A DNA stretch of 64,000 bases, from NCBI RefSeq assembly GCF_000208385.1, contig NC_015436.1, positions 1,364,001 to 1,428,000 on the forward strand, in the 5' to 3' direction. Within the stretch, counting starts at the first letter, position 1; every line of letters starts with the position of its first letter. This document shows positions 9,690 to 59,531 of this stretch, piece by piece. The DNA is from Parasphaerochaeta coccoides DSM 17374. GTDB lineage: Bacteria > Spirochaetota > Spirochaetia > Sphaerochaetales > Sphaerochaetaceae. The notes below the pieces were generated by a model. That model worked only from the letters and a program-made list of their open reading frames with translations. It made no database searches and was not told the origin of the DNA. A program made the translations under genes and the position numbers.

Positions 9690-10361
9690 TTATACGATGA
9701 AATAGTTCGGAAACTTCTTTCTCAATACCACAGTTTCGTCAGTAAGCTTGGACAGATGGGAATTTTCGAGACGGCAGGACTCATCGACATCACGACGCCC
9801 GAAAGCATCCATCATCCTCTCATGTTGCGCCACGATGTCTCCGAGAACGCCCTCAAGTCGGAATGACAGAAGACGTATGCGGTGATGGTTGCCGCAGAGA
9901 GTGGAAATGACATCCCAACACCATGAACGTCCGATTGCATTGAACACCTGATAGTGGAAGGCATCATCGCTTTCAAGGAATGCCAGGTAGTCTTCTTTTT
10001 CCATTGCCTTCATCTGGAGGGCAATGGCATGTCTGAGTATGGCCATGTCATCTTCATGATGGGATGCCGCGAATATCTTGACCGCGGCCTCCTCCATGCT
10101 CCTGCGCATGAACCGTTCGTCCTCGACCCGCTCCACATCGAGCAAAGCTACCCGTGTTCCCTTCTGGGGAAATACATCCACAAGTTTGTCGCGTGACAGC
10201 TTAATCAAGGCATCCCGTACAGGAGAACGGCTGACGCCCAGTTCCCCTGCCAGGAAATTGATATTCAATTCCTCACCGGGAGGGAGTGTAAGCGAAAGTA
10301 TCTGGCGGCGCAGGATGTCAAATATCCCGTCGCTTGCCGTGATGCGGGACGGACGTTCCAT
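9690..10361 (-). CDS. GntR-family (FadR-type) regulator of the hexuronate operon
   Basis: A 223-residue transcription factor with an N-terminal winged helix (about 10-72, with LAGELGVSRSPVRDALIKLS) and a C-terminal all-helical FCD ligand domain carrying the expected His/Asp residues (DDAFHYQVF, CGNHHRIR). Lying between uxuA and uxuB, it most likely senses a pathway intermediate such as fructuronate and represses the operon. A near-perfect 18-base palindrome ahead of uxuA is the candidate operator. The start at 10361 follows AGAGGG; the upstream open frame is mostly uxuA 3' end. Confidence 0.88.
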   Translation of the reverse strand: MERPSRITASDGIFDILRRQILSLTLPPGEELNINFLAGELGVSRSPVRDALIKLSRDKLVDVFPQKGTRVALLDVERVEDERFMRRSMEEAAVKIFAASHHEDDMAILRHAIALQMKAMEKEDYLAFLESDDAFHYQVFNAIGRSWCWDVISTLCGNHHRIRLLSFRLEGVLGDIVAQHERMMDAFGRRDVDESCRLENSHLSKLTDETVVLRKKFPNYFIV

Positions 10362-10389
10362 ATCGTATTCCCTCTTTATTTCATCTTTT

Positions 10390-11475
10390 TCATTTTTTTG
10401 GCGATGCGGCATGCGCCGATTTGTCAATCGCTTCCCACAGACCATTCAGATATGCAGCGCCGAGGGCACGGTCATATAAACCGTAACCAGGCATGGCGAC
10501 TTCTCCCCAAATCATGCGTCCATGGTCAGGGCGGGCAGGTCCGTCAAAACCTATATCATAGAGTGCCTTGACGATTTCATACATGTCGAAGGTTCCGTCC
10601 TTGGACAAGTGGGCGGCCTCCTCGAACACTCTAGGAGAGAAATGCTGAAGATTCCTCAGATGGGCAAAGTGGATACGCTTTCCCAATGAACGGATGATAT
10701 CGGGAAGGTCATTCTTCAAGGAAGTTCCCAAGGAGCCTGTACACAGGGTGACGCCATTGAACGGGGCATCCACGGCTTTCATAAGGCGCAGGAGGTTCTT
10801 CTTGTTGGTAATAATCCGGGGAAGTCCGAACACCGGCCACGCCGGGTCATCGGGATGGATTGCCATACGGATACCCCATTTCTCACAGACGGGACGAATC
10901 GCTTCAAGGAAATATATCAGATTGGCAAAGAGTTTTTCTTCGTCTACTCCCTTGTACGCTTCAAAGAGATCCTTCACCCTGGCAAGACGTTCCGGCTCCC
11001 AGCCCGGCATCACGAACCCTTGGGCATTGGCCGTAGTCGTGTCAAAGAAAACCTGCGGGTCAATGGAATCGACGGTTCTCTGGTCATACGCCAGCACAGT
11101 CGAACCGTCATATCGTTCCTTGGCCAAATCAGTACGCGTCCAGTCGAAAACCGGCATGAAGTTGTAGCATACCATGGTAATGCCTTCGGCACCCAGATTG
11201 TCCAACGTGGTGATATAGTTCTTGATGTACGTGTCCCGATCAGGAGAACCAATTTTGATGCTGTCGTGGATATTGACGCTTTCAATGCCCATGATTTTCA
11301 GGCCGGATGCCTCGACTTCTTTCTTGATGGCTGCAATCTTCTCCCGTGGCCATTCTTCTCCGGCAGGGATATCGTAGAGAGTCGTAATAACACCTTCCAC
11401 GCCAGGGATCTGACGTATCTTCCACAAGGGAACCGAATCAAAAGAACTGCCGAACCAGCGTAACGTCATATGCAT
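10390..11475 (-). CDS. uxuA: Mannonate dehydratase
   Basis: Converts D-mannonate to 2-keto-3-deoxygluconate. The 361 residues are standard for UxuA. Diagnostic blocks are MTLRWFGSSFDSV, LYDIPAGEEWP, GITMVCYNFMPVFDWTRTDL, AIHPDDPAWPVFGLPRI and the metal-binding end GPARPDHGRMIWGE. It is the first gene of the operon with AAGGAG 9 bases before the ATG at 11475. Glucuronate isomerase (uxaC) and the KDG enzymes are not in the window. Confidence 0.95.
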   Translation of the reverse strand: MHMTLRWFGSSFDSVPLWKIRQIPGVEGVITTLYDIPAGEEWPREKIAAIKKEVEASGLKIMGIESVNIHDSIKIGSPDRDTYIKNYITTLDNLGAEGITMVCYNFMPVFDWTRTDLAKERYDGSTVLAYDQRTVDSIDPQVFFDTTTANAQGFVMPGWEPERLARVKDLFEAYKGVDEEKLFANLIYFLEAIRPVCEKWGIRMAIHPDDPAWPVFGLPRIITNKKNLLRLMKAVDAPFNGVTLCTGSLGTSLKNDLPDIIRSLGKRIHFAHLRNLQHFSPRVFEEAAHLSKDGTFDMYEIVKALYDIGFDGPARPDHGRMIWGEVAMPGYGLYDRALGAAYLNGLWEAIDKSAHAASPKK

Positions 11476-14211: not shown

Positions 14212-15996
14212 TCAGTCAGAGATGCGCAATATTCCGTTGAGCTTTTGTACCATGGCAAGGTCAATCTTCACTACCTTGCGGTCGTAGGTGACCAACCCAT
14301 TCGTCTCATCTTCTACATCGCTCAGCTGAGTATAGATAGTAGCGGACAAACCGCCTCCGAGCAGTGGCATGATTTGCTCCCCGAACAGCTTTCGGTAAGC
14401 GTCATTGAAGGTTTCAGATGTGGAAAACTTTTTGTACCCGAATGATTTTTTCATATTGTACGTATGTCCGGGGACGTCGAGGCGGTAGCCACCAAATTCC
14501 GAAAGGACAGCAGGCCGTTCATCCCATTGAAAATGGACAGTTCTGAAATAGATATGACGGCTATTGAAGTCCCCACCACCCTGATCGTACCAGCCACTCG
14601 CATGATCAATCAGTCGGGAAGAATCCAACCTGCGTATCTTCATGGCAATTCTTTTGCTGTCGAACTGCCCCCATCCTTCGTTGAACGGAACCCATACGAC
14701 CACACACGGACTATTGGCAAGGAGTGAGATGGTCTGCTCCAGTTCCCGTTCAAACTCACCCCTGCCCTCAACGTCCCGGCGGTAGGTCATCCGCCAGCAT
14801 CGTGTATCATCAACGGGAAGTTTTACAAAGGGAGTAATGGACATCAGAGCCTTGCTGTACTGTCCTCCGCCACTGATCATGTCCTGCCACACCACCATGC
14901 CCAGCCTGTCACAATGATAGTACCAACGCAGCGGTTCAATCTTGATATGTTTGCGGAGCATGTTGAATCCCATCTTCTTCATGAGCGTGATATCGTATAT
15001 CAACGCCTTGTCCGAGGGTGCGGTGTATAGGCCGTCAGGCCAGTAACCCTGATCCAGTACACCATTCTGAAAATATGGGCGATTGTTCAACAAGAGCCGT
15101 CTGATTCCGCTGGAATCGGTACCAATGGATATCTTACGCATGGCGGCGTAACTTGTGACGCGGTCTTCACCGTACTCAATCCGCAGGCCATAGAGAAAAG
15201 GATCTTCGGGTGACCAAAGCCGCATGTCAGGAACAGGAATGACCACAGTTCCCATGGAGTCGAACGGACACCGGATTATTTCCGCCTCCCCATCCATGAG
15301 CCGGACGTTACCATTGGCAGGAAAGGATGGCACGACAGTGAGTGTAATCGTCCTCTCGTCAATGTCCGTAGTGACCTTCATTTCCTTCACATATGCCAAT
15401 GGAACGCTTTCCAGCCAAACGGTCTGCCAGATACCCGACTGCGGCGTATACCAGATACCTCCCGGACGGGAAGACTGTTTGCCACGGGAATGAAAGGAAG
15501 AATCAGTCACATCTGTGACGACTACGCGCACCATGTTCTTTTGCGGTGAAAGGAACGTACTGATATCAAAGGAGAACGGAAGATATCCTCCCGAATGAGT
15601 CCCGGCCAGCATATCATTGACGAATACTTCGCATTCTTGATCCACTGCTCCAAAATGAAGCAGAACCAGACCACGGATAAAGCCTTCCGCAAGCTCAAAG
15701 CTCCGTTCATACACCAGCGTATCGGAAGGACTGACCCAACGTTTCACGGAAGACAGCTCGGATTCAGGTGAAAACGGAACACGTATCTCCCCGTCAAACC
15801 TTTCACATGCCTTGTCCTTCGGGATGATGGCATAGTGCCACCACCCGTTGAGATTCAGATAACTGTCACGTACCATCTGTGGTCGAGGATATTCAGGCAA
15901 CGGTTGCATACTGAGGTTTCCCAGAAGTTCCTCTCCCCAAGGCGTAAGCAACGTGGCCGTCTTTCGTTCCCAGACAGTATTTTTTTTCTGCCTCAT
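14212..15996 (-). CDS. Glycoside hydrolase family 2 protein (beta-glycosidase)
   Basis: Retaining beta-galactosidase/beta-glucuronidase-type enzyme, 594 residues. Domain order is the GH2 one: jelly-roll sugar-binding domain (about 40-200), immunoglobulin-like domain (about 200-300) and TIM barrel (about 300-590). The acid/base Glu440 (PFNEGWGQ) and nucleophile Glu500 (VLSEFGGY) are both present. There is no signal peptide, so it works on imported sugar. Its ATG overlaps the MFS stop by 4 bases, coupling hydrolase and carrier. The exact sugar cannot be decided: nearby uronate genes make a glucuronide possible, but the two operons are separate. Confidence 0.88.
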   Translation of the reverse strand: MRQKKNTVWERKTATLLTPWGEELLGNLSMQPLPEYPRPQMVRDSYLNLNGWWHYAIIPKDKACERFDGEIRVPFSPESELSSVKRWVSPSDTLVYERSFELAEGFIRGLVLLHFGAVDQECEVFVNDMLAGTHSGGYLPFSFDISTFLSPQKNMVRVVVTDVTDSSFHSRGKQSSRPGGIWYTPQSGIWQTVWLESVPLAYVKEMKVTTDIDERTITLTVVPSFPANGNVRLMDGEAEIIRCPFDSMGTVVIPVPDMRLWSPEDPFLYGLRIEYGEDRVTSYAAMRKISIGTDSSGIRRLLLNNRPYFQNGVLDQGYWPDGLYTAPSDKALIYDITLMKKMGFNMLRKHIKIEPLRWYYHCDRLGMVVWQDMISGGGQYSKALMSITPFVKLPVDDTRCWRMTYRRDVEGRGEFERELEQTISLLANSPCVVVWVPFNEGWGQFDSKRIAMKIRRLDSSRLIDHASGWYDQGGGDFNSRHIYFRTVHFQWDERPAVLSEFGGYRLDVPGHTYNMKKSFGYKKFSTSETFNDAYRKLFGEQIMPLLGGGLSATIYTQLSDVEDETNGLVTYDRKVVKIDLAMVQKLNGILRISD

Positions 15997-17303
15997 GCTC
16001 CGCCCTTCCGTACAGTCCTCTCACGACCGAGCAGAACCGGCAGGAAGATCAACACACCGCTTACCGCTGCGGCAAGGAACAGCATTGGCGTGGGAACGCT
16101 CTTGGATACACCAAATTCCTCGTACATCAGAGGGGAGCCTGCGGTCACTATGGAACCAATGAACGGTCCGCATGTCATAGGAACCAATACGGTGAACATC
16201 ATCCGTATCCCCTGGAACAGTCCGACCTGCCCTGGGGGTGTCAGATCGCGCACACGGGAATTCAGGTTCATCAAGATTGTGAGGTTCCCTGTCATCATCA
16301 CAATGCCCCATATGATAACCGGCACAAGATTCCTGGTGAAATACAGCCCTATCAGACCAATCAGATATAGAACTAAAGCCGGAAATATCATTCGTCCACG
16401 CCCAATCTTGTCAGCCAGACGCCCTGTCAGGACACTGCCTACCGCTGAAAAGACGAATACCATGCCGAGAAGGACAGCATAATTTTTGATTCCCAGCCAC
16501 TGTTCGATGTAGATGATGAAATAAGGCATGTATGTCTGGAGTGATATTCCTGCCAAGGAGAGAGCCGTAAAGGTAAGATAGAGATTCTTGTTCTGTTTGA
16601 TCATCGATGGCCTGAATGTCCTGGCCAGATTTACGAGAGGATTCAGATTGCTCTTGGCAAGACCGGGAACGTCCTGGATGAGGAAGAATCCGACAAGCCC
16701 TACCACGGAAGTAAGTCCTCCGACCAGCAGGAAGAACACTTGCCACTTCCCCTGCTTGGTAAGACCATCAAACAACCCGAATATAATAAGCAAGGCAACC
16801 AGAGGCATAGCTGACAGCATGCCTTCCACCGCGCCACGGTTTGATGGATCCGTGATATCCGTAACCCACGAATTGAACGCGGCGTCATTGGCCGTTGCGC
16901 CAAAAAAGGTCATTATGCAGTCCATCACGATAATCAGGATCACGGCGACCGTCATTACCTGAGCCGCAGGAATAAAACGTTGCAGGTTGGCGGTGTTGAT
17001 GACGGAAAATGCCATGGTAGTGATACCCCAGAGCAAGTAGCACACGCTGATCAGAATTCGGCGGCGACCCTTGCGGTCAGAGAGCGCCCCCATGAACAGC
17101 GTAGCCAGCGTAGCGATAATCGCGCTGGCGGCAACCATGATTGCAATATCTTGCACCCCTCCTGTGGTCGTCTTGTAAAGGAACACATTGAAATACATGT
17201 TCTCCACCATCCAGGCAATTTGTCCGAAAAGCCCGAACAACGCCAGAACAACCCATTGCCGCTTAGTCACCCGCATCCCGCCCATATACACCTCTCCCAT
17301 CAT
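15993..17303 (-). CDS. MFS transporter, probable glycoside carrier
   Basis: Twelve-helix major facilitator. The inter-helix loops MGALSDRKGRRRIL (after helix 2-3) and TGRLADKIGRGRMIF (second half) are the duplicated MFS signature. Residues 1-12 are hydrophilic. I start it at the ATG at 17303 with GAGGGG upstream; the ATG at 17285, with GGAGAGG five bases upstream, is also possible. The longer frame to 17402 is rejected because it runs through a terminator-like hairpin. Coupling to the GH2 gene by ATGA overlap suggests it imports the glycoside that the enzyme splits. Confidence 0.85.
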   Translation of the reverse strand: MMGEVYMGGMRVTKRQWVVLALFGLFGQIAWMVENMYFNVFLYKTTTGGVQDIAIMVAASAIIATLATLFMGALSDRKGRRRILISVCYLLWGITTMAFSVINTANLQRFIPAAQVMTVAVILIIVMDCIMTFFGATANDAAFNSWVTDITDPSNRGAVEGMLSAMPLVALLIIFGLFDGLTKQGKWQVFFLLVGGLTSVVGLVGFFLIQDVPGLAKSNLNPLVNLARTFRPSMIKQNKNLYLTFTALSLAGISLQTYMPYFIIYIEQWLGIKNYAVLLGMVFVFSAVGSVLTGRLADKIGRGRMIFPALVLYLIGLIGLYFTRNLVPVIIWGIVMMTGNLTILMNLNSRVRDLTPPGQVGLFQGIRMMFTVLVPMTCGPFIGSIVTAGSPLMYEEFGVSKSVPTPMLFLAAAVSGVLIFLPVLLGRERTVRKGGA

Positions 17304-17340
17304 TGCTATCCCCTCAGCCTGAAAACCAACCATCGGCAGA

Positions 17341-17366
17341 AAAAGAAAAATCCTGCCTTTGGCAGG
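17341..17366 (-). terminator. Terminator-like hairpin in the leader of the MFS-GH2 operon (attenuator candidate)
   Basis: On the minus strand CCTGCC (17366-17361), loop AAA, GGCAGG (17357-17352), then ATTTTTCTTTT. It lies about 40 bases upstream of the MFS start and downstream of the likely promoter region, so it could end transcription early. There is no gene upstream on this strand needing a terminator, since recX points away. Confidence 0.5.
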
Positions 17367-17513
17367 GGACATGCAATTTTGTTTTTTTGTCTTTATATAC
17401 ATCCTAAGTACAGAAAGTGAACAATTAAGTGATGTAATGTGTGTAATATATGTAAAATATGAATTGGTTTCTTTTTCTTGATGTGTGTAAGAGCATGTAT
17501 ATGAGGATAATTC

Positions 17514-33507: not shown

Positions 33508-34851
33508 TCAATACTGCAACGCGGACGCTTTGAGCATCCGGTCGAACAATTCCCGTGCCTTGTCCCGTGAAATGTTCACCAAAGGATCACAGAGGAAAGC
33601 GGAGAAAAGCAATCCATCATCTCCGGAGACAACCGCGTCAAGCGTCATCTGCTGGACATCACTGACCTGTCTGACCAGATTTTGGACTGCCAACGGAGGA
33701 GCTGACGAGACAAGAGGACGGATGGAATCCTGTGAGATTACCCCGTTGCTCTCCACAATCCGTCCCACGGGCAGATAGTTGATCTGACCCTCGTTGGGAA
33801 AATTGATATTGGTTACCATAGTACGTTCACCCATAAGGGAACGCATGATGTCCACGCCTTCCTCATCAGAAAGCTCAGCCACCAACTCATCATCCTTGAA
33901 GACCTTCTCCCTTTTCTCCTTGGCCGAACGCAACCGCCAATCATAAGGCGTACGAATCACTCCATAGTGATGAAGATCTTCGTCACTGGTCAGGAACCAT
34001 GGGACGAACTCGGCAAGATGCCGATCCCCGGCAGCCCCCAATGCCCCGAAATCACGAAAGAAACTAAGACCTATGATCTGGTCGCAGTCAAACCACTTCT
34101 CATCCTTCAACCTCTGGAGTGCCTGTGCCGTCCTGTTGGTAAATATCGCGGGATTGGAAACAAGCTCAAGAAGATGGGGCATCAGGTCATTGCCCTGCCA
34201 GGTAGCCTTGGTCAGGAAGGTGAAGTGATTTACCCCCGTAATGTCAATCTTTATATCCCTGCGGTCCGGTCGGGGGACGGAGAACCACCGGGAGACTCCA
34301 TCGGCAAGGAAGTTCTGGGTATGAAATACCTCATGGCAGCAACCGAGAGCCTTTATCCCAGGAAAGGCATGGTACAGCGCGGCAGTACACAAGGTCATAG
34401 GATTGGTGTAGTTGATGACCCACGCATCAGGACAGTATTTCTCAATCTGTCGGGCGAAATCAAAGAAAATCGGTAATGCCCTGCGGGCACGCATGATGCC
34501 GCCGGGTCCGGTGGTATCTCCGACGGACTGCAAGATTCCATATTCTTCAGGCAGAACCAGATCCCCGTAACGGCATTCAGTCTTTCCTGGCTCAATTGAG
34601 ATAACCACCAAATCACAACCAGAGAGAGCCTCGCCTATCTCATCGCATGCCTCAACCTGAAATCGCCCTTCGCTTTTGTTGACGGAAAACACTTGACGCG
34701 CGACAGCTACGTTGTTCCGTGCCGCTGCCTTATCGATATCGTACAGAACCAAGCTTCCGTGCGTCGTGGTATTGTACGCAAGGTCCTTCATGAACTGTAT
34801 TGCCCAAAGACGACTTCCTCCACCGATGATGCAGATGCGGGTCTTTTTCAT
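33508..34851 (-). CDS. GH4 glycosidase with CHEV motif, probable alpha-galacturonidase (LplD type)
   Basis: NAD- and Mn-dependent family 4 glycosidase, 447 residues: N-terminal Rossmann start ICIIGGGSR (7-14), NYTNPM (147-152), CHEV (172-175) and GVNHF (206-210). In GH4 the residues after the metal-binding Cys-His sort substrates; CHEV is the mark reported for alpha-galacturonidases such as Bacillus LplD. The nearby CUT1 importer and YesMN-like regulators make an LplABCD-type locus, supporting a uronic-acid oligosaccharide substrate. SD AGGAGG. It lies away from the ABC genes, divergent to the regulator. Confidence 0.8.
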   Translation of the reverse strand: MKKTRICIIGGGSRLWAIQFMKDLAYNTTTHGSLVLYDIDKAAARNNVAVARQVFSVNKSEGRFQVEACDEIGEALSGCDLVVISIEPGKTECRYGDLVLPEEYGILQSVGDTTGPGGIMRARRALPIFFDFARQIEKYCPDAWVINYTNPMTLCTAALYHAFPGIKALGCCHEVFHTQNFLADGVSRWFSVPRPDRRDIKIDITGVNHFTFLTKATWQGNDLMPHLLELVSNPAIFTNRTAQALQRLKDEKWFDCDQIIGLSFFRDFGALGAAGDRHLAEFVPWFLTSDEDLHHYGVIRTPYDWRLRSAKEKREKVFKDDELVAELSDEEGVDIMRSLMGERTMVTNINFPNEGQINYLPVGRIVESNGVISQDSIRPLVSSAPPLAVQNLVRQVSDVQQMTLDAVVSGDDGLLFSAFLCDPLVNISRDKARELFDRMLKASALQY

Positions 34852-34937
34852 ATTCCGTTCCTCCTATTCCTGCCCTATTATCATGCCTGTCCCACCGGAT
34901 TGCATAGGTCGCTTAGTTTGACATTCGGTATCTTTTC

Positions 34938-34969
34938 TTGACATGAACCGGAAAAATCAATGATATGAT
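34938..34969 (+). promoter_or_regulatory. Promoter of the response regulator gene, possibly giving a leaderless mRNA
   Basis: TTGACA at 34938-34943; the -10 is TGATAT at 17 bases (34961-34966) or the better TATGAT at 20 bases (34964-34969). Either places the transcript start at or within a few bases of the ATG at 34976, which has no SD. Confidence 0.45.
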
Positions 34970-34975
34970 ATCATC

Positions 34976-35713
34976 ATGTATTCGTTGATTATCATAGATG
35001 ATGAAAAAGAACTTTTGGAAGGGCTCGCGCACTATTTCCCGTGGGAATCCATTGGTTTTATCACCGTCGGAGCTTTCAGTGATGCCAAGAGTGCCCTTGC
35101 ATATTGCCGGGATAATCCGGTCGATGTAGTCCTGACGGACATCCGCATGCCTTTCCTTTCCGGTCTCGACCTGATCAAAGAACTCCGTACACACAATCCA
35201 ACCCCAATATTCTGCGTCATGAGCGCCTACAGCGACTTTGAATATGCCAAGCAAGCCATTGCATTCGGCGTGAAGGAATACTTGGTCAAACCTCTATCTT
35301 TTGATGATCTCAGGGCCTCTTTCCAGAAAATCCATGCGCATCTTGACGGGACTCCCGTTCTCCTGCCCTCTGAATACAGTCATGATGAGACGCTTCCCCT
35401 GATCAGCCAGACCCTTGCCATCATTGAGAAGCGGTTAGGGACATGTTCGTTGCAGAACATTGCCGGAGAATTGAATATATCCGCCAGCTATCTGTCACGG
35501 CTTTTCAAGAAAGAGGTCGGACAAAACTTCCAGGAATACCTGCTCAAGAGGAAAATGGACATGGCCGGGAAGATGCTTTCCGGCAAGGTGGAATACAGGA
35601 ACAAAGAAATAGCCCGGACACTCGGATATCAGGATACCCAGAATTTTTGCAGGACTTTCCGCAGATATTTCAAGACATCTCCACAGCAATACAGACAAGA
35701 GAACAAGACATGA
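34976..35713 (+). CDS. Two-component response regulator with AraC-type DNA-binding domain (YesN-like)
   Basis: 245 residues: receiver domain 1-120 with acidic pocket D8/D9, phospho-Asp55 (VLTDIRMP) and Lys in LVKPLSF; AraC/XylS helix-turn-helix pair about 145-243 (IAGELNISASYLSRLFKKEVG and IARTLGYQDTQNFCRTFRRYF). It is coupled by ATGA overlap to the sensor kinase. By analogy with YesMN/LplR-type systems it should activate the adjacent sugar ABC operon. Confidence 0.9.
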   Translation: MYSLIIIDDEKELLEGLAHYFPWESIGFITVGAFSDAKSALAYCRDNPVDVVLTDIRMPFLSGLDLIKELRTHNPTPIFCVMSAYSDFEYAKQAIAFGVKEYLVKPLSFDDLRASFQKIHAHLDGTPVLLPSEYSHDETLPLISQTLAIIEKRLGTCSLQNIAGELNISASYLSRLFKKEVGQNFQEYLLKRKMDMAGKMLSGKVEYRNKEIARTLGYQDTQNFCRTFRRYFKTSPQQYRQENKT

Positions 35714-37539
35714 CGAACAGCAAGAACAGGATATTCAGGATATTCCTCCGTCACAGTCTTCCGTTGCTCATTGTGACGCTGCTCTTTGGGACAGGGGCAA
35801 CCATCATGGTCCGCAGCTTCATCCAGCGCAACAGCATCAGCCAGGCTCATCGAACCTTAAACCAGATAAGCGCGTATTACGATGTCATCCTTGACGAAAT
35901 GGATTCCCTGAGCCTGATGCTCAGTACCAATCCTGAGATGCTGGTGAGGTTGCAGAACATCCTTGAAAACGAAGCAAGCATCGACCTGGATACCTTCCGT
36001 GAAATCAAGCTCATCCGTTCCTTTCTCTCCGCTCCAGCCAACGCGCGACCGTACATCGAAGGCATCTATGTCTATCTGGAAAACCACCGACAACTGGTTC
36101 TGTCAGGCAACCTTGGATTCGTCACCCTGCCAACGATGGAGGATGCTTCCTGGTACAGGACATACAGGGCAATGCCGACAGATATCCAAGAATACTCGGA
36201 ACATGTGACCATCCGGGAAGGAACTGCCACCGAACAGAGCATCATCCGTATATATCGCCGGATTACCACTTTCGCCGGAGCTCCGCTGGGAATCATCGTC
36301 CTGGACATCAAGGAAAGCGCCCTTGCACAAAGCTACATGGTTGGAGAAGGTGAACGTTTCTCCGTTTACAACAACAATGAAAACTTACTTTTTTCCAATC
36401 CTCCCGGAGCTTCTGCCTACCCGAAGGACGACCTGGAGCTTTTTCAGGCAAAATCAGGCAAGTATGGGTGGACGTATGTCCTGAGCATCTACAAACCACA
36501 GCTTTATGCTCTTTCGATCACTTTGAGGAATTATACTCTTGCGCTCACCATTTTCGCTTTGCTCATAGGCCTTTTCCTGACTCACCGAACCAATCGGCGG
36601 GAACACCAGTTCCTCGCCAATGTGATGAAACAACTCACACAGGTCGGGGATATAGACTTAAAGGGAAAAACTCCCTCGGAATATCGCAACATATTCGATT
36701 ATCTCAACTACCATGTCATCAAGACCTTCATTGAGCAGGACTACCTGCGGTGGCAGAAAGAAGCCATGGAATACCGCGCCTTACAGATGCAGATTAATCC
36801 TCACTTCCTGTTCAATGCGCTGGACACAATCAACTGGAAGGCAGTGAGACTTGCCGAGGGGGAGAACGATGTAAGCCGAATGATCCTATTGCTCTCAAAA
36901 CTCATCAAATATTCATTGCAGGTGGATGGATTGGATGGAGTCCCGCTGGAAAAGGAACTGGAACAAACCGACTGCTACATCCAACTCCAGCAGATACGTT
37001 TCCGTGATTCTTTCACCTTCACGTGTGATGTGGACAGTACTCTGCGGGACGTCCTGGTTCCCAGCATGTTCTTTCAGCCAATTTTGGAGAACTCCTTCAA
37101 TCATGGTTTCGTCGAAGGTCGGATGCTGGTAATTTCCCTGAGAGCCGAAAGCCTGGGAGAAAATGTCCTGTTCACTATCTCCAACAACGGTAATCCCTTG
37201 TCGACACAGGAACTTGAGCGTCTTAACAAGGACAATTATGATGCCCTTAAGAAAAGAACTTCCCTCGGTTTGCAGAACATCCGCAACCGATTGGAACTTT
37301 TCTCCCAGAGGAAAGGGAGAATGGTCATCTCCAGTGATGGCAGGCAGGGCATGTCGGTCAGCATACTCCTGCAACAAAGACGGTCAGTTTTTCATGCCGG
37401 TGGTGGCGATTCCTTCGACGAAGTACTTCTGGGCGGAGAAGAACAGAATCACCGGCGGCAAGATGGAGAGCAGGCTCATCGCCATGATCTGGTTCCAGTC
37501 GAACTCGGCGGAAATGTCCATTGTCATTCTCAAACCTAA
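35710..37539 (+). CDS. Sensor histidine kinase (YesM-like, His_kinase/LytS type) with a C-terminal read-through tail
   Basis: 609 residues: helix 1 (about 17-35), extracytoplasmic Cache-like sensor (about 36-270), helix 2 (about 273-291), HAMP-like linker, then the His_kinase block with phospho-His365 (MQINPHFLFNALD) and an ATPase domain with N-box PILENSFNHGF and LGLQNIRNRLELF. The family normally stops soon after SVSILLQQ (about 556); here 53 further residues, His/Gly/Glu-rich, are read from the antisense of the permease 3' end. The true start is the ATG at 35710 and not the long upstream frame. Confidence 0.88.
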   Translation: MTNSKNRIFRIFLRHSLPLLIVTLLFGTGATIMVRSFIQRNSISQAHRTLNQISAYYDVILDEMDSLSLMLSTNPEMLVRLQNILENEASIDLDTFREIKLIRSFLSAPANARPYIEGIYVYLENHRQLVLSGNLGFVTLPTMEDASWYRTYRAMPTDIQEYSEHVTIREGTATEQSIIRIYRRITTFAGAPLGIIVLDIKESALAQSYMVGEGERFSVYNNNENLLFSNPPGASAYPKDDLELFQAKSGKYGWTYVLSIYKPQLYALSITLRNYTLALTIFALLIGLFLTHRTNRREHQFLANVMKQLTQVGDIDLKGKTPSEYRNIFDYLNYHVIKTFIEQDYLRWQKEAMEYRALQMQINPHFLFNALDTINWKAVRLAEGENDVSRMILLLSKLIKYSLQVDGLDGVPLEKELEQTDCYIQLQQIRFRDSFTFTCDVDSTLRDVLVPSMFFQPILENSFNHGFVEGRMLVISLRAESLGENVLFTISNNGNPLSTQELERLNKDNYDALKKRTSLGLQNIRNRLELFSQRKGRMVISSDGRQGMSVSILLQQRRSVFHAGGGDSFDEVLLGGEEQNHRRQDGEQAHRHDLVPVELGGNVHCHSQT

Positions 37540-38229
37540 CGCTACAGGATATTTCGCGACACTGCTGATATAAATTAGAGCGTTGAAGAATTCATTCCAT
37601 GTCCAGACGAACTGGAAGACGATTACCGAAAACATCGCCGACTTGCATAATGGAAGCAGCAGGTCTTTGAGAATCACAAAACTGTTACACCCATCAAGTT
37701 TCCCGGACTCATCAATTTCAAGCGGCAGGCCACGGAAGAATTGTACCATCATGAAATTGAAGAATGGAAAGCATCCCAGCAATGCCGGGACGATGAACGG
37801 CAAATATGAATCCAACCAGCCAAGCTCGCGGAAAAAAATGTACCGAGGAATGATGATTACCGTCGCTGGCAGCATCATCGTGGAAAGCATGACGATGAAA
37901 AGGATCTTCTTCAGCGGGAAATTGAAACGGGCAAAGCCGTAGCCGACCAGCATGGAGGAAAACACTGTAAAAAGCACTGTCGGGACGACCATCAGGAACG
38001 TATTGATGAAAAAAGTGCCAAACCCGTACTGTCCGCTGCCCTTCCAACCAGAAGCGAAAGCTCCGAACACAGGGTTCCTCGGTAACAGGGAAAGGGTGCC
38101 AAATATCTCCTCATTGCTTTTGAAGGAAGCTCCGATCATCCAGAGCAGAGGATAAACCATGATATAGGCCAGCAGGATAAGCAGGACATAGGAAGCGATC
38201 TTGGCAAAGCTATGTTTCTGTCTGATCAT
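37384..38229 (-). CDS. Sugar ABC transporter permease, LplC/MalG type (CUT1)
   Basis: 281 residues, six helices, with the coupling motif ESGKLDGCNSFVILKDLLLPL and the ending QKYFVEGIATTGMKN typical of MalG-like permeases. Starts at the ATG at 38229 (GGAG 7 bases upstream), overlapping the stop of the first permease by 4 bases. Its last 156 bases overlap the convergent kinase gene on the other strand. Confidence 0.9.
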   Translation of the reverse strand: MIRQKHSFAKIASYVLLILLAYIMVYPLLWMIGASFKSNEEIFGTLSLLPRNPVFGAFASGWKGSGQYGFGTFFINTFLMVVPTVLFTVFSSMLVGYGFARFNFPLKKILFIVMLSTMMLPATVIIIPRYIFFRELGWLDSYLPFIVPALLGCFPFFNFMMVQFFRGLPLEIDESGKLDGCNSFVILKDLLLPLCKSAMFSVIVFQFVWTWNEFFNALIYISSVAKYPVALGLRMTMDISAEFDWNQIMAMSLLSILPPVILFFSAQKYFVEGIATTGMKN

Positions 38230-39110
38230 AGGGAATCTCCATAATGTACCCAGGAATCCGATGATTTGAAGGTCAGTCCGGTAAAGAACAGGATGATGGC
38301 GAACAATATCCACGAAAGAGCGGAAGCATAGCCCATCCTGAAAAACTTAAAACCATGGTCATAGAGCATCAGTCCATAGAGATATGTCGATTTCAACGGC
38401 CCTCCCTGGGTGATGACGAACGCCGGGGTAAAATCCTGGAAGGCGTTGATCATTTGCATGATGAGGTTGAAAAGAACAATCGAGGACAACTGAGGCAAAG
38501 TAATCTTCCAAAAAATACGCATCTTCCCCGCGCCGTCGATTCGTGCCGCCTCGTAAAGGCTTTCAGGAATCTGTTTCAAGCCCGCCAGGAAAAGAAGCAT
38601 GGATGAACCGAACTGCCAGATGGTGACCAGGCTGACGGTTCCCAAGGCAAGATTCGGATCTCCAAGCCAGTCGGCTCCGGGAAGTCCGATGCTTGTGAGC
38701 AGATTGTTTAGCACCCCCTGGTTCATGAAAAGATATTTCCACAATACGGCTATGGATACACTGCCACCAAGGATGGAAGGAATGTAATAGAGCGTCCTGA
38801 ACAGGTTGATTCCTTTGATTTTTTGGTTGAGGATGACTGCGATGGCCAAGGCAAAAGCTATCTTGCAGGGTACGGCTATCAGTACATATGCAGCGGTGAC
38901 CTGCAAGGATTTGAGAAAGGAAAGATCCCCGCTGAATATCTTCCTGTAGTTGTCCAAGCCAACGAACTTTGGGTCTCCCAGCAACTGAAAATCAGTGAAG
39001 GAATACCAGAACGATCTGACCAAGGGCACAAGCTGGAGAACGAGAAAGCCAATGAGCCAAGGCATGATATAGATATATCCGGGGAAAGAATACTTTTTAC
39101 GTATCACCAT
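38226..39110 (-). CDS. Sugar ABC transporter permease, LplB/MalF type (CUT1)
   Basis: 294 residues. Starts MVIRKKYSFPGYIYIMPWLIGF with AGGAGGG 4 bases upstream. Coupling loop ESLYEAARIDGAGKMRIFWKITLP is the standard EAA motif. The signature QDFTPAFVITQGGPLKST is common in MalF/UgpA-like permeases. Second gene of the SBP-permease-permease operon; no ATPase gene lies in the window, so a shared MsmK-type ATPase elsewhere is expected. Confidence 0.92.
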   Translation of the reverse strand: MVIRKKYSFPGYIYIMPWLIGFLVLQLVPLVRSFWYSFTDFQLLGDPKFVGLDNYRKIFSGDLSFLKSLQVTAAYVLIAVPCKIAFALAIAVILNQKIKGINLFRTLYYIPSILGGSVSIAVLWKYLFMNQGVLNNLLTSIGLPGADWLGDPNLALGTVSLVTIWQFGSSMLLFLAGLKQIPESLYEAARIDGAGKMRIFWKITLPQLSSIVLFNLIMQMINAFQDFTPAFVITQGGPLKSTYLYGLMLYDHGFKFFRMGYASALSWILFAIILFFTGLTFKSSDSWVHYGDSL

Positions 39111-39217
39111 TGTCCCTCCTGATGGATAGGATAACATGCCATCCGCCCAATCATTCTCATCCATGTGGGTGGTATGTGGATGGTATTGCGGATGGCAATT
39201 CAACACAGTAATGAAAT

Positions 39218-40495
39218 CTACAGATTGGTCAGCGTAGCCGTGAGATTTGCAATCATCTTGGCAGATGCCTGCTGCGGAGTAAGACGACCAAAACCAAATT
39301 CATCAATGACATCCTGCATGGTCTGGATGACTTCGCTGTTCATCTGCCATGAACTTTGAGGAAGCCCGGCCTGAGCTATTCCATCATTGGTAGCCTTTTC
39401 CGCCAAAGCAGTAATCTGGTTTTTCTCTGCAAGGATTCTTCTTCCGCTGACCGTGGCAGGGATTCCGCGGGCTGTGCCGAGGATTTCTATGGCTTCATGA
39501 TTGGTGAAAAGATAATCCAGGACTTTGATAGCCTCGTCCTTATGCACGGAACTGTTGTTCACAACCATGATTTGTGAAGGTCTCATCAGGACGCCAGTGT
39601 TCTTTGCCCCTTCCATGACAGGTAATTGACGCGTCTCGATGTTTTTCTTATTGCCAATGGCTTTATCCATGGAACTGACCCAATCCCAGGCGGTAGCCGT
39701 TTTGCCATTAATCCATGAGGGATTCTCGTGGAATTTCTGATAGAAAAGGGATGTCTGGGAAAACGGCGCGACAATACCTTCATCGAACCATTGTTTGAAA
39801 TAGGCAAATGCCTGGGTTCCCTGCTCTTCGGTAAAGGCTACCTGTTTATTGCTGTTAACGACTGCGCCAGCAAGTTGGGCAATGTAGATTTCAAACCAGT
39901 AGCGCATGATGTCCGGGCTTGCGGAACTGAAATAAGCGGCGGGGTCGTTCTGATGTATCTTGCGACCTTCGGTGATGATGTTCTCCCACGTCCATACGGT
40001 ATCAGGGTCTATGCCGTTATCCGCAAGCAACGTGACATCAACAAGGAAAGTATTGACATTGATTCCGGTGGGAAGTCCCAGAAGCTTGCCATTGTAAGTG
40101 CAATAATCATTCAGGAAGTCAACATCGAATTCGTCAAGGTCGATCATCGTTCGGTCCAGGACGACAAAGACATCTCCTCTGGCTGAAAGTTCGTTGAGCC
40201 ACGGCTGGTCAATCTGGATGATATCGGCAGCAGTCCTTCCGGCAATCTGGGTGACAAGTTTTTGGTAATAACCGTCCCAACCGCCATACTCGCCTTCCAG
40301 TCTGACGTTGGGATTCTCCCGTTGGTAAGCTGCCATCGCATTGAGGGTGGGCGTATGCCGGGAATCACTGCCCCACCAAGAAACGCGGAGAGTCTTTGAT
40401 CCTGAATCCTTGGATGATTCTTTGCCGCCACCTGCAAACATAGTTCCCATGGTCACAAGGACGATGAGAAATAGCATAAGGTTTTTTTTCATCAT
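39218..40495 (-). CDS. Sugar ABC transporter substrate-binding protein (CUT1), exported without a lipobox
   Basis: 425 residues. Signal peptide of about 22 residues ending MFAGGGKES; there is no cysteine, so it is probably cleaved by signal peptidase I and not lipidated, or kept by its signal anchor. The mature part opens LRVSWWGSDSRHTP and has ADIIQIDQPWLNEL, usual for family 1 sugar binders. SD GGAGG before ATG-ATG. First gene of the importer operon next to the GH4 and YesMN genes. Confidence 0.9.
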   Translation of the reverse strand: MMKKNLMLFLIVLVTMGTMFAGGGKESSKDSGSKTLRVSWWGSDSRHTPTLNAMAAYQRENPNVRLEGEYGGWDGYYQKLVTQIAGRTAADIIQIDQPWLNELSARGDVFVVLDRTMIDLDEFDVDFLNDYCTYNGKLLGLPTGINVNTFLVDVTLLADNGIDPDTVWTWENIITEGRKIHQNDPAAYFSSASPDIMRYWFEIYIAQLAGAVVNSNKQVAFTEEQGTQAFAYFKQWFDEGIVAPFSQTSLFYQKFHENPSWINGKTATAWDWVSSMDKAIGNKKNIETRQLPVMEGAKNTGVLMRPSQIMVVNNSSVHKDEAIKVLDYLFTNHEAIEILGTARGIPATVSGRRILAEKNQITALAEKATNDGIAQAGLPQSSWQMNSEVIQTMQDVIDEFGFGRLTPQQASAKMIANLTATLTNL

Positions 40496-40640
40496 GAACC
40501 TCCATTTGTTCTACCTGTACGGCTAGTCTGCTGGGGTTTCCCGCATATGGACAGTACGAGTTTCTTGACATAAAGGTATCATTTTTTGATATTTCAGACA
40601 GCAGGACACTGAATCATCACGTCCAGAAATGGAACGACAT

Positions 40641-41678
40641 TCACTTCAGGCCGCTTTTCAGCCATAATGCCGTGGCTCGGACAGTATCTTCTACAGACCG
40701 TGGTTTATACCCCAGTTCACTGCTGGCTCTTTCATGGGAATACAATGAGTTTTCCGACAAGGTTCTCAAGGAGTACCGGGTGAACAGTGGTGTTTCACCG
40801 GTAAGTCGGTAATGAAGCTCCATGAAAGGGGTAAACAGCTTGGCAAACCACAGGGGGAGATAGAGTTTTGTCTTCCTGTTTCCTGTGGCACGGGACAAAG
40901 AGTCGAACAGTTCCTTCACTTCAACGAAGCGGTTGGAAAGAATATAACATTCCCCTCTCCTTCCTTTCTCCGCAGCCGCGATGATGCCGTTGGCGACATC
41001 CCGAACATCCACGAAGTCAAACCCACCCCGTACTCCAGCAGGCAACTTGCCCTGCACATACAGGGACATCATGTGCGTCATGTTCCCAGTCTGCAAACCA
41101 TGCGGACCTATGATGCCAGAAGGATGGACGACGACCGCATCCAGATTGTCTGCCGCCGCATCAAGCACCATCTGCGTAGCCATGGCTTTGGTCTTGTCGT
41201 AGTATCCGCGAACCGCGTCAGGATTGAAATTACGTATTTCACGCATGATCTGACCATGGGGCAGCACAGGAATGGCATGGACGGAGCTGACATAGACCAG
41301 CCTACGGACATGATGGCGCAGACATGCGTCAATGATGTTCCTGGTTCCATTCACATTGACAGTTTCTACCCTCTTATCTGGCTTGCGGGATATCGTAACA
41401 ATACCAGCGCAATGAATGACAATGAACCCGCTCTCCTCAGCATCCGCTGCATCAGCCTCTCCATTATCCTTAGCGAACAGCGGATCAAGGGAAGATGGAT
41501 TACACACATTGCCCGCATATTCAGTCAGTAGTTCACGGTTCACGTTGATGAAAGCCGGACACGTCTCCCCCGGCAGGACAAGGGCACGTACTCCATGTCC
41601 TTGTTCCAGCAGCTTCCTGACGACATATCCGCCAAGATGCCCGGTCGCGCCAGTCACTATATACATTTTTTCACTCAT
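40641..41678 (-). CDS. NAD-dependent epimerase/dehydratase (extended SDR)
   Basis: 345 residues. Rossmann TGATGHLGGYV at the start, a VSSVH serine strand, and the catalytic YYDKTKA (Y-x-x-x-K). The later block PSGIIGP and length fit dihydroflavonol-reductase/3-beta-HSD-like extended SDRs. The substrate is unknown. GGAGG precedes the ATG. It is divergent from the TetR gene, which probably controls it. Confidence 0.82.
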   Translation of the reverse strand: MSEKMYIVTGATGHLGGYVVRKLLEQGHGVRALVLPGETCPAFINVNRELLTEYAGNVCNPSSLDPLFAKDNGEADAADAEESGFIVIHCAGIVTISRKPDKRVETVNVNGTRNIIDACLRHHVRRLVYVSSVHAIPVLPHGQIMREIRNFNPDAVRGYYDKTKAMATQMVLDAAADNLDAVVVHPSGIIGPHGLQTGNMTHMMSLYVQGKLPAGVRGGFDFVDVRDVANGIIAAAEKGRRGECYILSNRFVEVKELFDSLSRATGNRKTKLYLPLWFAKLFTPFMELHYRLTGETPLFTRYSLRTLSENSLYSHERASSELGYKPRSVEDTVRATALWLKSGLK

Positions 41679-41717
41679 GCTGTACCTCCATGATGTCCGT
41701 CTTGTTCCAATCGTTTT

Positions 41718-41843
41718 TCATTCGGCCTCAAACTGTTCCATCACCTTCCAAAACACCTTGAGACCGGAATCTACAGCCTGATGGGTTCCCAGGCCAAACC
41801 CTTCGGTAGATTGTTCTTCCCTTGCAATGGGAGATTTCTCCAT
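41718..41843 (-). CDS. Possible 41-aa leader ORF upstream of the SDR gene
   Basis: ATG at 41843, TGA at 41718. The peptide MEKSPIAREEQSTEGFGLG continues into AVDSGLKVFWKVMEQFEAE, with protein-like composition, but no SD. The TGA overlaps a further ATG (41721) of a 16-codon ORF ending across the SDR start. It may be a small leader or a chance frame. Not recognised. Confidence 0.25.
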   Translation of the reverse strand: MEKSPIAREEQSTEGFGLGTHQAVDSGLKVFWKVMEQFEAE

Positions 41844-41964
41844 TTAAAATATTCATACCGGTTGTCATTTAATCAACAGCATGTTCGCGAATTACCGTCA
41901 TTCATCTAACATGGCACAAGACATCCGTTCGATAAAATCCAGAACGATGCCGGGAGGTATTAAA

Positions 41965-42543
41965 ATGAAACACTCCGGGGAAAAGATTGACCGCAGGGTT
42001 CTCTACACCAAGATGATACTTAAGGAAAGTCTAGTAGAGTTGATGAAGGAAAAACCTATCGGAAAAATTACACCTACTGAACTCTGCCGCCATGCAAACA
42101 TGAACCGCAATACTTTTTATTCACATTATGACAGTCCAGAAGATCTTTTGCGCAGCATTGAGGATGAACTGTACGAACAGATAAAACATTCCATCGTAAA
42201 TTCCTTGTCAAAAGGAGATATTTTCTTGTTGCTGAGTGAGATATGCCAAGCAATCCATAACAATGGGGATCTCTGCTCCGTGCTTCTCTCCGAATATGGT
42301 GATAAAGATTTCTTCCGGCATCTCATTGATCTGGCTCATGATAGAACCATTGAGGAATGGAGGGCTGCGGGCATTCTCCTTGAAAAAGAAAAGGTTGAAT
42401 TTCTCTATTGCTTCTCCATAAGCGGGAGCGTCGCGACAATCCAGAAATGGATACAGGACGGGATGAAGCAACGCCCGGAGGATATTGCCCGTTTCATTGA
42501 AAAAGCAACACAGCACGGTGTCCGTGGATTTGTGGGAAGATGA
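41965..42543 (+). CDS. TetR/AcrR-family transcriptional regulator
   Basis: 192 residues. N-terminal helix-turn-helix about 13-58 (LVELMKEKPIGKITPTELCRHANMNRNTFYSHY-type block), then a helical ligand domain ending in the TetR_C-like GSVATIQKWIQDGMK segment seen in DhaS-like regulators. GGGAGG lies 7 bases before the ATG at 41965. It is divergent from the SDR gene; autoregulation and control of the SDR are inferred. Confidence 0.85.
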   Translation: MKHSGEKIDRRVLYTKMILKESLVELMKEKPIGKITPTELCRHANMNRNTFYSHYDSPEDLLRSIEDELYEQIKHSIVNSLSKGDIFLLLSEICQAIHNNGDLCSVLLSEYGDKDFFRHLIDLAHDRTIEEWRAAGILLEKEKVEFLYCFSISGSVATIQKWIQDGMKQRPEDIARFIEKATQHGVRGFVGR

Positions 42544-56901: not shown

Positions 56902-57071
56902 CATCCAAAATCACCAAATAACCCGAAAGTATTATATGCTTTTCATGCAAAATAATACCTTTGGGTAATAGCTTTCTGCCATCACCACGTTTATACTACT
57001 TTATTAATTACTACCATATGCGTAAGCTGGCATGTCATCATCTTCTTCATGAAGAAAGGAAAAGACACTAT

Positions 57072-57097
57072 GAGAGAGAGAGAGAGAGAGAGAGAGA
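57072..57097 (+). repeat. (GA)13 dinucleotide repeat ahead of the lipoprotein gene
   Basis: Thirteen GA units. The first G completes an ATG at 57070-57072 that has AAAGGA ten bases upstream. From that ATG the repeat is read as Arg-Glu units and stops at TGA 57109-57111, twelve bases before the ATG at 57123. With one unit fewer or two more, the ATG at 57070 would be in frame with the lipoprotein. Confidence 0.95.
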
Positions 57098-57122
57098 ACG
57101 ACGAAATCTGAGAGAACTGCGT

Positions 57123-59531
57123 ATGAGCAAATCTAGCAGACCAGGTTTTGTGGTTCTTACAACCATTCTGATACTACTTGCCGCCCTTATTTCATGCGAC
57201 AGCAAACTGAATGTTTCAAATACAAACGAAGTACGTTTCACTTCCGAGATAGGCCGCAAGGCCACGGCAGACTCCGAATGGCAAGCCGATGATGAAGTCG
57301 GCATCTACATGGTAGCTCATGATGCCCTGACAGCTACTGCCGCCTCAGAACGTGCAAACAAACTCTACACGGCTGACACAGCCTTCCAGACTTCCGGCTT
57401 CACTCCTGCTACCGTTGGTGACACCTTGAAGTGGGATGACATCTCCACCCCTGCCATCACACACTTTGACTTCATCGCCTATTATCCTTACGTGTCTTCC
57501 ATCGCCAATACCACCGCCCTACCCATAAATGTCTATCCAGGTTCCGGGGAACAGGATACCGGAAAGGCTGACTTCCTGTGGGGACGCACCGACAATGTAC
57601 AGAACAATACCTCAACGGTGCATCTGAAGCTTGACCATATGCTCTCCCGCCTGATTGTCAACATCTCTCCCAGCACGACCGTTGATGCTACGGCTATCAA
57701 TGATGCCACCGGTGGATTTACTGCTACGGTCAAAGGCTTGAACACGCAGAGCGCAATCAACCTGAATGACGGAACCTTGGGCACGACGGATACGAGCGCA
57801 TCTATTCTCATGAAGGACATTTCCGACACCCTTACGGCTACGGAAAGAACCGAGGGAAAGCGCAGGTTCGAGGCTGTGCTGATACCTGTGGACAACACTT
57901 TTGCTCTGGCTAACGTGAGCCTGGAGTTTACCCTGAGCGGTGGTGCTGGCGCTGGTACATACACATGGGCAGCGGATTCCGTAGCGACCTCTGATCAAGG
58001 CAAGATTCACTTTGACAAAGGCAAGCAGCATGTCTACAACATGACGCTCAATACGTCTGATGAAGAAGTCGCCGTTGCCGCCATTGAGATTGAGATTGGG
58101 GATTGGGATGAAAGTGACGGCGGGAACTGGGGAGCCGTCAAGGCATACCGGCTCACTTTTGATGACAACGATGCCACGAACGGAAATGCACCGGGACAGA
58201 TACTCGCTCATGAAGGAAGTCAAATCACACTGCCGGGTCCCGGAGACCTGGAGAAAAACATCCATTACTTCTATGGATGGAATACTGATCCTGCTGGCAC
58301 TGGAACCCAGTATGCCGCTGGTGACACATTAGAGATTCTTGACCAGGATGTGACTCTGTATGCACGGTGGTTGGTGAAGATTAAATCAGTCTTCACCGGA
58401 TACAGCCATACGATGATACTGAAGGAGGACGGGACTCTCTGGGCGACTGGAAGCAACTATTATGGTCAACTGGGCTTGGGTTACAGCGGCATTCTAACCA
58501 ACAGAAGCACACCCGAACAAGTCACATCCACATCCGAGGGTTCTCTCCCTGTTATCGCGTCTATCTCCGCCGGAGGCTATCACACGATGATCGTGGATGA
58601 GGATGGGAGTCTCTGGGCGACTGGATCCAATGAGGACGGACAACTAGGTTTAGGTGACAGCGGCTCTGCGACCGACAGAAGTACGCTCGAGAAAGTTCCG
58701 TCCATGGGCACTGATGTCGCAGATGTCTTTGTCGGAGGCTATCACACGATGATCCTGAAGAAAAACAATACACTCTGGGCAATAGGCTGGAATAGTTATG
58801 GCCAACTGGGCGATGGTACTTCAGGCGGCGATCCGGACTTCAAAAGCACACCCGTAGAAGTTTGGGATTCTCCCGATGGTCAGGTGAAAATGACTGATGT
58901 CGCGGCCGTATCCATCGGAGACGAACACACGATGATTCTGAAGAAGGACGGCACGCTCTGGGGGACAGGATTCAACTATTGGGGTCAACTGGGCGATGTC
59001 ACTACGATCAACAGAAGCATTCCTGTGCAGGCCACGTCCATGGGGACTGATGTCGAGGCCGTCTCTGCCGGATATTCTTTTACGATGATCCTGAAGAAAA
59101 ACAATACACTCTGGGGAGTAGGAGAGAACGCGGACGGACAACTGGGTGACAACACTAGGGCCCCCAGAAAGACTCCCGTACAGGTCATGGAGGCTGAAGG
59201 GGTCGGATTCATGACTGATGTCAAGGCTGTCTCTGCCGGATACTACTATACGATGATTGTGAAGAAGGACGGCACGCTCTGGGCGACTGGAGACAACTGG
59301 GCTGGTCAACTGGGTGACGGCACTACGACCGACAGAACTACTCCCGTGCAGGTCAAGGGTGCTGGAGGGGTCGGGTTCATGACTGATGTCAAGGCCGTCT
59401 CTGGCGGAGACGGCCACACGATGATCCTGAAGAATGACGGCACACTCTGGGCGACTGGATTTAACCATTATGGTCAACTGGGTGACGGCACTACGACCGA
59501 CAGAACTACTCCCGTGCAGATAATTCTCTGA
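57123..59531 (+). CDS. Large surface lipoprotein: fimbrillin-like, InlB-type and seven RCC1 repeats
   Basis: 802 residues from the ATG at 57123. Signal peptide with lipobox LISC (Cys25). About 35-333: a region resembling fimbrillin/Mfa-like proteins of Bacteroidetes (VRFTSEIGRKAT, FDFIAYYPYV, LDHMLSRLIVNIS). About 340-418: a Listeria-Bacteroides (InlB/Flg_new) repeat (YFYGWNTDPAGTGTQYAAGD, VTLYARW). About 420-802: seven RCC1-type repeats built on HTMILKKDGTLWATG and YGQLGDGTTTDRTTPVQ, giving a beta-propeller. Likely a surface adhesin or binding protein. Translation may be controlled by the GA repeat just upstream. The frame is open back to 56961, but no SD supports an earlier in-frame start. 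Confidence 0.8.
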   Translation: MSKSSRPGFVVLTTILILLAALISCDSKLNVSNTNEVRFTSEIGRKATADSEWQADDEVGIYMVAHDALTATAASERANKLYTADTAFQTSGFTPATVGDTLKWDDISTPAITHFDFIAYYPYVSSIANTTALPINVYPGSGEQDTGKADFLWGRTDNVQNNTSTVHLKLDHMLSRLIVNISPSTTVDATAINDATGGFTATVKGLNTQSAINLNDGTLGTTDTSASILMKDISDTLTATERTEGKRRFEAVLIPVDNTFALANVSLEFTLSGGAGAGTYTWAADSVATSDQGKIHFDKGKQHVYNMTLNTSDEEVAVAAIEIEIGDWDESDGGNWGAVKAYRLTFDDNDATNGNAPGQILAHEGSQITLPGPGDLEKNIHYFYGWNTDPAGTGTQYAAGDTLEILDQDVTLYARWLVKIKSVFTGYSHTMILKEDGTLWATGSNYYGQLGLGYSGILTNRSTPEQVTSTSEGSLPVIASISAGGYHTMIVDEDGSLWATGSNEDGQLGLGDSGSATDRSTLEKVPSMGTDVADVFVGGYHTMILKKNNTLWAIGWNSYGQLGDGTSGGDPDFKSTPVEVWDSPDGQVKMTDVAAVSIGDEHTMILKKDGTLWGTGFNYWGQLGDVTTINRSIPVQATSMGTDVEAVSAGYSFTMILKKNNTLWGVGENADGQLGDNTRAPRKTPVQVMEAEGVGFMTDVKAVSAGYYYTMIVKKDGTLWATGDNWAGQLGDGTTTDRTTPVQVKGAGGVGFMTDVKAVSGGDGHTMILKNDGTLWATGFNHYGQLGDGTTTDRTTPVQIIL
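59303..59520 (+). repeat. Exact 49-base direct repeat inside the RCC1 part
   Basis: Bases 59303-59351 and 59472-59520 are identical, encoding the end of RCC1 repeats 6 and 7. Recombination between them would delete or add exactly one repeat (169 bases apart, which is not a multiple of three, so such an event would also shift the frame). Confidence 0.9.

Follow-up and report, generated by a model that had tools for sequence, protein, structure and literature searches.

A Parasphaerochaeta coccoides locus with an LplD-type GH4 enzyme, a TogB/YesO-like importer and a candidate operator, predicted to serve the use of short alpha-galacturonides

We examined a 64,000-nucleotide stretch of Parasphaerochaeta coccoides DSM 17374 (contig NC_015436.1, positions 1,364,001 to 1,428,000; hereafter the window), in which open reading frame (ORF) analysis and a Pfam scan placed six genes at positions 33508–40495: a glycoside hydrolase family 4 (GH4) enzyme, a response regulator/histidine kinase pair, and a CUT1-type solute-binding protein with two permeases. 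A first-pass annotation of the window had described a GH4 enzyme with a CHEV active site beside a CUT1 binding protein, two permeases and a YesMN-like two-component system; the motif is read in the window protein within the string GCCHEVF, and the Pfam domains agree with the neighbours named. The genes and two candidate operators are as follows.

33508–34851, minus strand: GH4 enzyme of the LplD group, predicted NAD/Mn-dependent alpha-galacturonidase with the CHEV motif (447 amino acids; PF02056 and PF11975)
34918–34943, plus strand: candidate operator 1, TTGACA-N4-GTATC-N5-TTGACA as read on the plus strand, 66 bp upstream of the GH4 ATG and 32 bp upstream of the response-regulator ATG
34976–35713, plus strand: response regulator of YesN-like architecture (245 amino acids; Response_reg and HTH_18, that is, a receiver and an AraC-type helix-turn-helix)
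35710–37539, plus strand: histidine kinase (PF06580 His_kinase; dCache match below cut-off)
37384–38313, minus strand: second CUT1-type permease (BPD_transp_1; internal ATG at 38229 a possible start)
38226–39206, minus strand: first CUT1-type permease (BPD_transp_1; internal ATG at 39110 a possible start)
39218–40495, minus strand: solute-binding protein (SBP_bac_1; nearest solved relatives TogB, then YesO)
40565–40591, plus strand: candidate operator 2, 69 bp upstream of the binding-protein ATG and oriented to its gene as operator 1 is to the GH4 gene

The binding-protein and permease genes run on the minus strand from 40495 to 37384, and the regulator and kinase genes (34976–37539) run toward them on the plus strand. 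This oppositely directed pair sits between the binding-protein operon and the GH4 gene, which reads from 34851 to 33508, divergent from the response-regulator gene. The GH4 gene forms a divergent unit of its own and does not share an operon with the ABC genes, whereas lplD of Bacillus subtilis lies in one operon with lplABC. The label "LplABCD-type" given in the first-pass annotation suits the enzyme only; of the proteins with solved structures, TogB and YesO come nearest to the binding protein. The tandem of a PF06580 kinase and a receiver-AraC regulator is of the YesMN type. The probable kinase start is the ATG at 35710, correcting an upstream ORF start at 35443; the kinase frame also extends about 50 residues beyond the ends of six aligned relatives, into the antisense of a permease gene. 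Literature searches found no paper on this locus.

Matches above cut-off to PF02056 (170 bits) and PF11975 (127 bits) assign the enzyme to GH4. Residues G10–G12, C172, H173, N208 and H209 were invariant across 20 aligned sequences, and we take these GGG, Cys-His and Asn-His elements to be nucleotide- and metal-site residues. A search against the sequences of solved structures returned B. subtilis LplD (3fef) at 357.5 bits, compared with 125.9 bits for the runner-up; 191 of 425 aligned residues are identical (45%), and the two proteins have CHEV, GxNHF and AAGDRH in common. The AlphaFold model (mean predicted local distance difference test score 93.9) shares the LplD fold, with 3fef the top match of a fold search (E = 4e-46; next entry, 2.6e-25). 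The nearest named relatives come from Sphaerochaeta and other spirochaete records. This homology supports the prediction that the window enzyme is an LplD-type alpha-galacturonidase. Hydrolysis of a neutral alpha-glycoside or a 6-phospho-glycoside would agree with the top NCBIfam label, an alpha-galactosidase subfamily, but that match scores 258 bits where the cut-off is 486, CHSV-bearing GH4 proteins (presumably of alpha-galactosidase type) and phospho-sugar enzymes are distant, and the Pfam scan found no phosphotransferase-system gene among the six locus genes; we regard such an activity as highly improbable.

Among 105 aligned rows drawn from numbered loci L001–L100, in which some genomes were counted twice, 92 carried CHEV, 7 CHSV, 2 CHEI and 1 CHNV, and three were fragments without the motif. 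Three of the 92 CHEV rows (second copies in L011, L015 and L019) lacked the AAGDRH element and were placed in another, remote GH4 clade; for the L015 copy, two 6-phospho-beta-glucosidase entries (145 and 140 bits) scored slightly ahead of LplD (130 bits). These rows rule out CHEV as a sufficient galacturonidase marker. The enzyme type that had been read from the motif is supported by homology, but the motif alone is not diagnostic. In a tree of 42 hand-chosen rows, a 29-row group holding the window enzyme and LplD stood apart, with support of 100/100, from both the second CHEV clade and the CHSV rows, and the window enzyme fell in a 13-row spirochaete branch neighbored by alphaproteobacterial and then verrucomicrobial proteins.

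The importer looks TogB/YesO-like. Compared with solved chains, the binding protein matched TogB (2uvg/2uvh, 157/156 bits; residues 35–354 of the window protein), 4ry1 (156 bits) and two designed esterases (154 and 152 bits), followed by YesO (118 bits), 4r6k (116 bits) and 4ovj (103 bits), with all remaining entries at 42 bits or less. As a control, a different binding protein encoded in this genome reached 60 bits at best, and no TogB entry was listed at the same threshold. By overall similarity, the window protein is a probable TogB-family binding protein. The entries 2UVG–2UVJ (2uvg/h/i/j) are Yersinia enterocolitica TogB, comprising the apo form and complexes with trigalacturonate and with saturated and unsaturated digalacturonate (PMC8839585); a second source likewise gives TogB as solved with galacturonate oligomers (PMC9314435). 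The uptake of a galacturonide oligosaccharide, as proposed at the outset, is supported by this homology. No ATPase gene was found among eight proteins scanned from 33508–42543, and the genome holds one OB_MalK match elsewhere, in a search that would miss ATPases without that domain. The locus differs here from TogMNAB, which has a dedicated ATPase in its operon.

Behind TogB and the TogB-like entries, the top solved match of the binding protein is YesO, and in B. subtilis both YesO and regulation of the YesMN type are part of the rhamnogalacturonan set. Together with four GH88/105 matches in the genome, this would accord with a rhamnogalacturonan-I fragment as the substrate, bearing a terminal alpha-galacturonate on rhamnose that the GH4 enzyme would cleave. 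However, TogB, an oligogalacturonide binder, outscores YesO, and the rhamnogalacturonan-lyase family PF18370 (RGI_lyase) was unmatched in all eight genomes searched, the window's own included, in searches that did not extend to rhamnose genes. As a difference from YesMN, the window response regulator is only 245 residues long. Rhamnogalacturonan is a possible substrate, less favored than oligogalacturonate, and we consider a rhamnogalacturonan-I fragment unlikely.

The regions upstream of the GH4 and binding-protein genes have a bipartite element in common, TGTCAA-N5-GATAC-N4/5-TGTCAA, with TATCAA in the first half of the site on the binding-protein side. We drew up the pattern by eye, using the window and loci L021, L024, L026, L027, L030, L090 and L115, where matches are no test of it. 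In its strict form it matched twice in the window and not at all in 100 shuffles of the window. It also matched exactly twice in the window's genome (G000), a single contig of 2,227,296 bases. Across eight whole genomes there were two matches each in G000, G002 and G022, one in G020 and none in G004, G036, G014 and G005; the reversed control gave none. The element is informative because, within a strict pattern, it is absent elsewhere in these genomes. Across five measured loci it lies 64–66 bp from the GH4 ATG, and across three it lies 69, 71 and 73 bp from the binding-protein ATG. In a weight-matrix scan the two window sites scored 36.2 and 35.2, the next non-overlapping place in the window 15.8, and single-base shuffles up to 15.3. 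Among L021–L100, the strict pattern was present in six of nine loci with the regulator (a match of at least 250 bits) and in three of 71 without it. Two of those three, L022 and L025, keep the operator pattern beside a GH4 gene next to which only a 34-residue regulator match remains (L022:4994–5153, L025:1630–1789). The outcome of a scan for promoter and terminator consensus sequences could not be told from that of shuffles (6 against 8.7 expected, and 8 against 7.1). We propose the element as the candidate operator of a predicted private regulon of two promoters.

In a tblastn search of the 80 named loci L021–L100, all six proteins have relatives together in four (L021, L024, L027 and L090), and four of the six have relatives at L026, L029 and L030, with the contig breaking off there; L059 holds a rearranged set with the kinase only as a remnant. 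The gene set is found together more than chance would give. The wider genomic context of these loci was surveyed by tblastn (E = 1e-15), with proteins from this analysis as queries; the resulting counts are not independent, as some lineages contribute several loci, and contig ends truncate many of the loci. GH28 is present in eight loci and GH105 in seven, all of the latter with GH28 (L046, L078, L083, L084, L088, L098 and L099). UxaB-like proteins were counted in six loci, UxaA-like in four, UxaC in three, KdgK-like in nine, Eda-like in eight and a TRAP permease in five. A different setting of this GH4 clade was seen at L042, L043, L044, L048, L049, L050, L052, L054, L055, L057 and L058, where the neighbors of the GH4 gene are an MGH1-like glycoside hydrolase, an SDR dehydrogenase (both in 11 of 11) and, in 10 of the 11, a family-5 binding protein. 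Proteins of about 665–694 residues adjoin the GH4 gene at L037:7994–9991, L086:8753–10837 and L091:11344–13425; a Pfam scan of those from L037 and L086 returned no match at the thresholds used.

Eleven of the 80 loci encode a PF04909 amidohydrolase close to the GH4 gene (L021, at 3339–4295, L024, L027, L032, L033, L035, L036, L038, L051, L059 and L090). Among seven related genomes searched, it was found at the GH4 locus in five (G002, G022, G020, G004 and G023), G036 gave a match at 29% only, and there was no match in G014 or in the window's genome. At L021 the amidohydrolase ORF starts at 4295 on the minus strand and the binding protein at 4416, with the operator (4318–4344) between both starts. 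The model, based on nine of the 11 loci (mean predicted local distance difference test score 81.7), is nearest in fold to the lactonase-type entries 4i6k, 2ffi and 4dlf, and lactonase and decarboxylase entries stand at 12–19% identity. Conceivably, though rather improbably, the locus is in Sphaerochaetaceae a compact regulon under a bipartite operator of its own, and the relatives' regulon also includes this lactonase-like amidohydrolase under the same operator, in which case the imported acidic oligosaccharide would carry a lactone, ester or other modification and the step would have been lost from the window's genome; if so, a step by an uncharacterized enzyme would be missing from known galacturonide catabolism. 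The amidohydrolase and its lactonase-type fold, the position of the window enzyme outside LplD's own subgroup, and uxuA within the same window could also point to an alpha-uronidase for another acidic sugar, a glucuronide or an unusual uronide, with a further step done by the amidohydrolase in the relatives. The absence of an amidohydrolase match from the window's genome argues against this, as does the much greater distance, by sequence and by fold, of the alpha-glucuronidase TM0752 (1vjt/7br4), and we find it improbable. In some Sphaerochaeta, a lyxose/mannose-isomerase-like gene directly follows the GH4 gene (L115:8902–9435, L023:10018–10563, L024:8288–8821, L026:4667–5200 and L027:11369–11902); the protein was found in one of eight genomes searched, with no match in the window's genome.

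The first-pass annotation had suggested that the product might join the uxu pathway of the window, though only by way of conversion steps encoded elsewhere. Genes for another route lie elsewhere in the genome, on the stretch G000:C1:36000–55999 (L109), with UxaC, UxaB and a UxaA-type dehydratase at 47–51 kb of the genome.

L109 13945–15438: UxaB (over NCBIfam cut-off)
L109 12388–13935: dehydratase of the altronate/galactarate type (GD_AH domain)
L109 10970–12391: UxaC (over NCBIfam cut-off)
L109 7293–8333: KdgK-type kinase (below NCBIfam cut-offs)
L109 6093–7163: Eda (over NCBIfam cut-off)
L109 from about 4582: GH28, with an N-terminus that by eye has no signal peptide

The sole NCBIfam match of the dehydratase is galactarate dehydratase, far below cut-off; by family it may be an altronate or a galactarate dehydratase, and its neighbors favor altronate. 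UxaE, the epimerase by which galacturonate would enter the fructuronate branch, was matched in four of the eight genomes searched but not in the window's genome, whereas UxaC was matched in all eight. Because the Uxa genes are present and UxaE is unmatched, galacturonate would reach 2-keto-3-deoxygluconate by the Uxa route and not through the window's UxuA, and entry into the window's uxu genes was rejected. UxuA (10390–11475) is over its NCBIfam cut-off, and the adjacent dehydrogenase of the mannitol-dehydrogenase family (8040–9668) reaches the cut-off of no NCBIfam model, that for fructuronate reductase included. This pair (window 8040–11475) is near the stretch 14212–17402, with a GH2 enzyme whose beta-glucuronidase match is below cut-off and an MFS carrier; these genes would suit glucuronides better and are possibly a glucuronide set. 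Of the pectin-cutting families searched (PF00544, PF18370, PF00295 and PF07470), the window's genome has one GH28 match (PF00295) and the four GH88/105 matches (PF07470). Large proteins joining fimbrillin-like PF13149 to RCC1-like repeats were seen at window 56961–59531, L109:17463–19646 and L110:16887–19376 (three scanned), and other ORFs of L109, L110 and L112 have N-termini like theirs.

Gene content, homology and the common DNA element are established. We think it likely that they make up a private regulon dedicated to short alpha-galacturonides, among which alpha-1,4-oligogalacturonates are the likeliest. The YesM-like kinase would sense the substrate or a related cue, and the AraC-type response regulator would bind the bipartite repeats and so activate both the operon of the binding protein and the GH4 gene. 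Import of the oligomer would fall to the TogB/YesO-like binding protein and the two permeases, with an ATPase presumably encoded elsewhere. In the cytoplasm, the LplD-type enzyme would remove galacturonate by the NAD- and metal-dependent redox-elimination of GH4 enzymes. Free galacturonate could then pass through UxaC, UxaB, altronate dehydratase, KdgK and Eda, for which genes were found.

Several observations weigh against this interpretation. Neither CHEV nor the fold sets the substrate. In the tree LplD sits in a separate 11-row group with the window enzyme outside it. The tree program also flagged that two long branches, one leading to the window's group and one to the second CHEV clade, come together, a kind of join that may be false. 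The operator pattern was built from sites that it finds: its independent matches are confined to L022, L023, L025 and L029, those in G002 and G020 duplicate the sequences at L021 and L090, and L030, L038 and L059 have the regulator with no strict match. A weight-matrix scan of five genome stretches with Uxa, GH28 and GH88/105 genes gave background only (maximum 15.2), which rules out the element as a regulon shared with the catabolic genes. Pectin genes of the relatives lie mostly at clostridial-type loci, whose GH4 enzymes are 38–42% identical to that of the window (about 40% at L078, L083, L084, L088, L098 and L099); the spirochaete branch has them only at L046 (weak GH105, GH28) and L056 (UxaC, weak KdgK). 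Neither PF00544 nor PF18370 was matched in the window's genome, in a search that did not cover pectinesterase and other lyase families. Finally, the amidohydrolase (11 of 80 loci) and the lyxose/mannose-isomerase-like protein (four of 80) are not needed for oligogalacturonate.

The locus adds a new, well-supported member to a known kind, and what it contributes is the candidate operator, a re-assigned importer and downstream route, and a limit on CHEV as a marker, which by itself should not name a GH4 enzyme a galacturonidase. A related lifestyle has been described for a Sphaerochaeta sp. from a pectin-fed enrichment of sheep rumen, which is reported to have the galacturonate pathway in full, pectin enzymes that lack signal peptides, and 52 COG1653 binding proteins (PMC7807696). 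The organism is presented there as a scavenger that has the pathway but no extracellular enzymes for it, in line with the window locus, although the text searched names GH43 and describes neither a GH4 enzyme nor this locus. The P. coccoides locus offers a testable account of how non-spiral gut spirochaetes may live on pectin fragments freed by others, through a private regulon for uptake and cleavage.

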